Assembly (NCBI GenBank): GCA_947174885.1
Contig: CAMWKO010000007.1
Coordinates: 1 to 64,000, forward strand
DNA length: 64,000 bases
Direction of reading: 5' to 3'
Origin: an uncultured Clostridia bacterium
GTDB taxonomy: Bacteria > Bacillota > Clostridia > Lachnospirales > Lachnospiraceae
The notes beneath the pieces were generated by a model, which saw nothing but the letters and a program-made list of their open reading frames with translations, was not told the origin of the DNA and did no database searches. Positions 59,901 to 60,325 of the stretch are shown one piece after another (positions within the stretch are counted from its first letter, which is position 1; each line of letters opens with the position of its first letter). The position numbers and the translations under genes were made by a program.

Positions 59901-60325
59901 GTGAAGTAACAGTTGATCCTATTTCTTGTTTAGTAATGGTACAGGGTGACTTGGTTGGAAGTAACACTGTAGGCGAAAACAACAATAATAATAAAAACGA
60001 TAGCAACTTCCCATGGTGGATTGTAGTCATTGTAGCAGTTGTTGTTTTAGTTATAATTATTATTGTAATAGCTATGAAGAAAAAAGGTTCATCAAAGAAT
60101 TCAGGTGTAACAGAAAAGATTTGTGATGTAAAGCTTTTATCAGCAGGAGCAAACTCAAGTGAAGTAGCTAAGGCAGTTAGTGACATTACAGGATTATCAT
60201 TAGCAGAGGCTACAGATATGGTAAATAACACACCAAAGATTGTAAAGAGTGGAGTTACTGTAAGTGAAGCTGAAACAATTAAATCAAAGCTTGAAGGATT
60301 AGGAGCAAGTATTAAGGTTATTTAA
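56909..60325 (+). CDS. Type I pullulanase (two CBM41-like modules, GH13) with C-terminal TM helix and L7/L12 C-terminal-like domain
   Basis: Two '[22 protein letters not shown]'/'[23 protein letters not shown]' PUD/CBM41 modules, '[34 protein letters not shown]', '[12 protein letters not shown]', '[13 protein letters not shown]', 'YGEGWTGG'; C-term TM and '[37 protein letters not shown]...'. Confidence 0.93.
   Translation: [1138 protein letters not shown]

Follow-up and report, generated by a model that had tools for sequence, protein, structure and literature searches.

The C-terminal domain (CTD) of the ribosomal protein bL12 (PF00542; structure 1CTF) carries in its helices 4 and 5 a conserved, positively charged site to which IF2, EF-Tu, EF-G, and RF3 bind (PMC6753160), and the positive charge of Lys-65 has been reported as required for activity (PMC6110070). 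bL12 domains are also known embedded in phage proteins, as a mobile module gained and lost on larger proteins and reported to retain the factor-contact residues (PMC6375957), and in one cyanobacterial orthocaspase (PMC8283722). In Lachnospiraceae, the type I pullulanases (TIGR02104) that have a C-terminal membrane anchor (e.g., L095 to L101) share a catalytic core, a spacer, a C-terminal helix, and basic residues behind it, and they stop 3 to 15 residues past the helix. The pullulanase encoded in the window, the 64,000-nucleotide stretch analyzed here, has all these parts but, unlike these relatives, continues into a bL12 CTD. As in the phage proteins, the module was added to a larger protein, although here it belongs to a membrane exoenzyme and not to a phage-encoded protein. 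The combination of pullulanase, transmembrane (TM) helix, and bL12 CTD did not appear in the literature that we searched; it is a new architecture made from known parts, seen in 2 genomes.

The gene, pulA (56909..60325, + strand), located as an open reading frame and by profile searches, encodes a membrane-anchored type I pullulanase precursor of 1138 amino acids. A strong Shine-Dalgarno sequence, AAGGAGGG, is read directly at 56890..56897, 11 nucleotides upstream of the ATG at 56909. A hairpin scan found a terminator-like hairpin between the gene for a CBM26 protein and pulA (56751..56783, assigned by the scan to the - strand but with a T run after the palindrome on the + strand too) and an intrinsic terminator-like hairpin of 18 pairs 3' of pulA (60408..60446, + strand). 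Because of these hairpins on both sides and the strong Shine-Dalgarno sequence, pulA looks monocistronic, which suggests that it is transcribed alone. The 2 secreted proteins encoded upstream (54510-55031 and 55463-56689) have starch-binding domains, one X25-type and one CBM26, as well as C-terminal ends that look sortase-like, and probably form a surface starch-capture set.

All parts of the precursor lie on the + strand. It begins with a predicted signal peptide (residues 1–34, 56909..57010) whose sequence pattern makes cleavage between VYA and DE likely. Profile searches identified 2 PUD domains (PF03714), detected in two stretches, the first at residues 39–129 (57023..57295) and the second after it, as well as a CBM48 (residues 376–455, 58034..58273), GH13, and pulA_all-beta. 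The type I pullulanase core (residues 365–990, 58001..59878) scored 779 bits against TIGR02104, for which the cut-off is 504.5, identifying the protein as a type I pullulanase, and the GH13 motifs FNWGYDP, GFRFD, GEGW, and HDN are legible in the sequence. The genome encodes a second pullulanase, which is lipoprotein-like, and a further, shorter one with no evident signal peptide at its start; both lack a bL12 tail.

Behind the catalytic part, an Asn-rich extracellular spacer (residues 1013–1033, 59945..60007), recognized in the sequence and the ortholog alignment, leads into a TM helix found by hydropathy (residues 1034–1056, 60008..60076), a KKKG stop-transfer signal that together with the predicted cytosolic linker spans 16 residues (1057–1072, 60077..60124), and the CTD (residues 1073–1137, 60125..60319), identified by profile, PDB sequence search, and model. 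The signal peptide, the single C-terminal TM helix, and the positive residues after it form the pattern of a type I membrane protein, and an LPXTG-type sortase motif was not found before the helix when the sequence was read. From the signal peptide, the stop-transfer lysines, and the anchors of its relatives we infer that the CTD lies in the cytosol. This probable location agrees with the initial annotation, which had placed the tail on the inner side, and nothing that we found places the C-terminus outside.

The same annotation had claimed that the pullulanase ends in a TM helix and a bL12 CTD, and had named an HMM search as the check; the search returned a clear match. Residues 1073–1137 scored 60.1 bits against PF00542 (E=2.7e-16, gathering cut-off 25.9), or 65.6 bits in the genome-wide profile scan, and TIGR00855 (bL12) matched with 49 bits, a score under the cut-off set for the whole protein, as a lone CTD should give. 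The bL12 N-terminal domain, which mediates dimerization and stalk binding, is absent from the pullulanase, where the TM helix and linker precede the CTD and TIGR00855 stays below its cut-off. A control profile of 40 Lachnospiraceae rplL CTDs gave 66.3 bits with the tail and at most 11.3 bits with 5000 shuffles of its residues, and a chance match was thus rejected. In a PDB sequence search bL12 led the matches (1CTF, E=4.8e-11). An AlphaFold2 model, helped by an input alignment that included rplL rows, predicted a β-α-α-β-α-β fold with a pLDDT of about 91 over the CTD, and Foldseek placed 1CTF on top (TM 0.93, rmsd 0.9 Å, 46% identity). The next fold was that of the adaptor ClpS, with TM values by query length of about 0.60 to 0.67. 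A ClpS-like tail that feeds Clp proteases and so sets enzyme turnover would draw on this shared overall fold, but the ClpS match is weaker (11% to 24% identity) and the tail is nearer to bL12 in both sequence and fold, which makes such an adaptor extremely improbable. An assembly chimera is also unlikely because an independent congener genome shows the same architecture.

To place the tail among relatives, we compared 81 pullulanases, comprising the window protein and 80 named relatives; the nearest were mostly from Lachnospiraceae metagenome-assembled genomes (MAGs). By hydropathy, 57 of the 81 have a C-terminal helix, followed by a median of 8 residues. Only 2 matched the CTD profile, the window protein and L093, whose record region is that of G005 (Clostridiales MAG JAAYNM010000045.1); the next score was 4.7 bits. 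The idea that such a domain serves as a general membrane-assembly tag fits poorly with these counts, since 55 of the 57 C-terminally anchored relatives lack it and 53 of those have 15 residues or fewer past the helix. Because the helix is found in 57 of the proteins and the CTD in 2, the predicted membrane anchor is the ancestral part, to which the CTD was added later. No relative was found in viral contigs. A full-length ortholog with a C-terminal TM helix occurs in 4 genomes of the genus, and 2 of the 4 orthologs have the CTD. The G005 ortholog (68% identical) continues past the helix through an Ala/Thr-rich linker of about 50 residues into a divergent CTD (40.9 bits), whereas the G002 ortholog has only a short Lys-rich tail and the G006 ortholog a Pro/Ala-rich one. 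The genus thus offers natural controls, pullulanase orthologs with and without the domain.

The window tail is about 49% identical to the CTD of its own genome's rplL and 35% identical to the G005 tail (24 identical positions). In a CTD tree of under 70 columns, with long branches and weak resolution, the 2 pullulanase tails were sisters (support 92/90) inside rplL, and they share T84, I93, and S96, which are rare or absent in rplL. From this pairing and these shared residues we infer that a single acquisition from an rplL-like gene is likely, as the simplest reading. In the source genome PF00542 matched 4 places: the pullulanase, rplL, a half domain of 54 amino acids, and a two-TM protein of the DUF6709 kind that ends in a full CTD. 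Origin from the DUF6709 CTD is disfavored because the tail is nearer to rplL (49% against 38% to 40%) and groups inside it.

The initial annotation had implied a link to translation-factor docking, which the composition of the tail does not bear out. Positions of the docking set are numbered here by what we take to be the E. coli CTD, a numbering that agrees with the 1CTF alignment line. K65, K70, K81, and K84 are nearly invariant in the 40 rplL copies, and K84 is invariant. At K65, K70, R/K73, K81, and K84 the window tail has S, K, S, A, and T, and the G005 tail V, A, V, E, and T. Each tail keeps 1 of 5 rplL-conserved positions in the docking set, compared with 22 of 34 (window) and 18 of 34 (G005) outside it, a contrast in the expected direction but not significant alone (P=0.14 and 0.34). 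The argument is carried instead by charge: the net charge of helices 4 and 5 is -3 in the window tail and -4 in the G005 tail, against +1 to +3 in the rplL copies. The tail therefore lacks the basic site of a functional ribosomal-stalk bL12, and as judged from residue composition the docking patch is lost in both tails. Since the charge of helices 4 and 5 is reversed in both, binding of translation factors by the tails is unlikely. A tail that docks translation GTPases or ribosomes beneath the membrane, as ribosomal bL12 does, would be in keeping with the true bL12 CTD fold and the identity to the cell's own rplL, but the site described in PMC6753160 is charge-reversed, the invariant K84 is T in both tails, and the N-terminal domain is missing; we regard this possibility as very unlikely. 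The loss of the ribosomal charged patch suggests that the cell re-used the bL12 fold for another job, and makes this a clear-cut example of a domain from the ribosome that, on a membrane exoenzyme, has lost its ribosomal surface but not its fold.

We then analyzed the constraint on the tail. Between the window and G005 orthologs, the GH13 parts are 78% identical and have a dN/dS of 0.10, while the CTDs have a dN/dS of about 0.69, a rough value because dS is near saturation over 66 codons; the rplL CTDs of the same genome pair give 0.07. The tail frame has stayed open with a recognizable core, whereas unconstrained tails remained open in 4% to 6% of runs of a simple simulation. The net charge of the whole CTD differs (0 in one tail and -7 in the other), as does the length between helix and CTD (16 against about 50 residues). 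A kept fold, a drifting surface, and a variable linker favor a role in which a folded mass suffices over one that depends on an exact interface. The reading that we consider the most likely, although only tentatively, is that a surface pullulanase with a short cytosolic stub was extended once by a CTD derived from bL12 that is now a compact folded cap. The extension would have occurred in a shared ancestor of 2 known species from one Lachnospiraceae genus, by copying of a bL12 CTD that still folds as such, minus its translation-GTPase surface. The cap would retain the C-terminus of the pullulanase inside the cell and shield the tail against membrane proteases or sliding out; as this role would select for the fold only, the surface would be free to drift. 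This protective role is a proposal drawn from sequence and model comparison. Against it, relatives manage with 3 to 15 cytosolic residues, so that a cap is not generally needed, and a dN/dS near 0.7 is also expected for a nearly neutral passenger. Such a passenger, an rplL fragment on a tolerant terminus that still awaits loss, would also account for the presence of the CTD in only half of the congeneric orthologs, but the kept frame and the 24 identical positions, many of them rplL-conserved, despite near-saturating synonymous divergence, and the rarity of open frames in the simulation render it rather unlikely.

A somewhat less doubtful alternative to the cap than a passenger is that the tail is a specific binding module for a cytosolic or membrane partner, such as a regulator or an importer of maltodextrins, and links extracellular starch cleavage to events inside. 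The CTD of bL12 is a domain dedicated to protein interaction (PMC6753160), and such modules recur on membrane proteins of Clostridia, predicted to lie on the cytosolic side in DUF6709 and one-TM small proteins. However, the 2 tails share little surface, as their low identity and different net charge indicate, the apparently monocistronic pulA suggests no operon partner, and in the same scan G005 had no CTD-bearing counterpart of the source genome's DUF6709 protein. An unlikely extension of partner binding is that recruitment of the CTD gave a transmembrane starch enzyme a cytosolic half for binding a partner, within a wider use of membrane-side adaptors in Clostridia that would also take in the DUF6709, one-TM, and EF-Tu-domain proteins. 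If true, an extracellular hydrolase would have gained a dedicated inside contact, and bL12 CTDs would have a wider, little-described role as membrane-side adaptors.

Recurrence was surveyed with PF00542 in about 620 genomes from the family, order, and class. Extra matches were uncommon: at least 2 matches were present in 18 of the 396 genomes of the family and in 22 of the 216 of the class, some of these matches being false. The low-scoring matches on EF-Ts (L089, L091) and on a short-chain dehydrogenase (L088), proteins named by sequence reading, were false positives, and the extra match in G152 is apparently an rplL split across 2 contigs. The additional carriers examined included DUF6709 two-TM, one-TM half-CTD, zinc-ribbon, and EF-Tu-domain-2 proteins, and among them we saw no bL12 CTD on another exoenzyme. 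The literature searched held no description of the broader group of membrane proteins with non-ribosomal bL12 CTDs, which would be a tractable set for asking about an off-ribosome role.

DUF6709-type two-TM proteins with a terminal full or half CTD were seen in L002 (697-1695, the source genome's own), L036 (4576-5727), L075, L080, L083, L173, and L174; PF20456 was confirmed in L002, L036, L173, and L174, and the other 3 were assigned by likeness. As in the window protein, their CTD is at the predicted cytosolic end, but they have no enzyme domain and their full CTDs mostly keep R73 and K84, unlike the window tail. Small proteins of about 94 to 116 amino acids (L180, L181, L183, L185, L187, L086) have an N-terminal TM helix, a short linker, and a C-terminal half CTD that spans PF00542 positions of about 8 to 39. 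In L035 (5942-6745), L077, L078, and L079, an N-terminal bL12-like CTD, acidic and without the docking residues, is combined with a C-terminal zinc-ribbon motif. Clostridia proteins with EF-Tu domain 2 (PF03144, called by profile in L175 and L176 and by eye in L177) and a full C-terminal CTD were found at L175 (1857-2945, - strand), L176 (1601-2641, + strand), and L177 (1812-2975, - strand). As L175 and L176 start with lipoprotein-like signals (PTAC and LSAC), their CTD may lie outside the cell; most of its factor-docking residues are retained. Finally, an 847-amino acid protein (L178, 3735-6275, - strand) has an N-terminal bL12 CTD followed by what by eye appear to be MORN-type and leucine-rich repeats.
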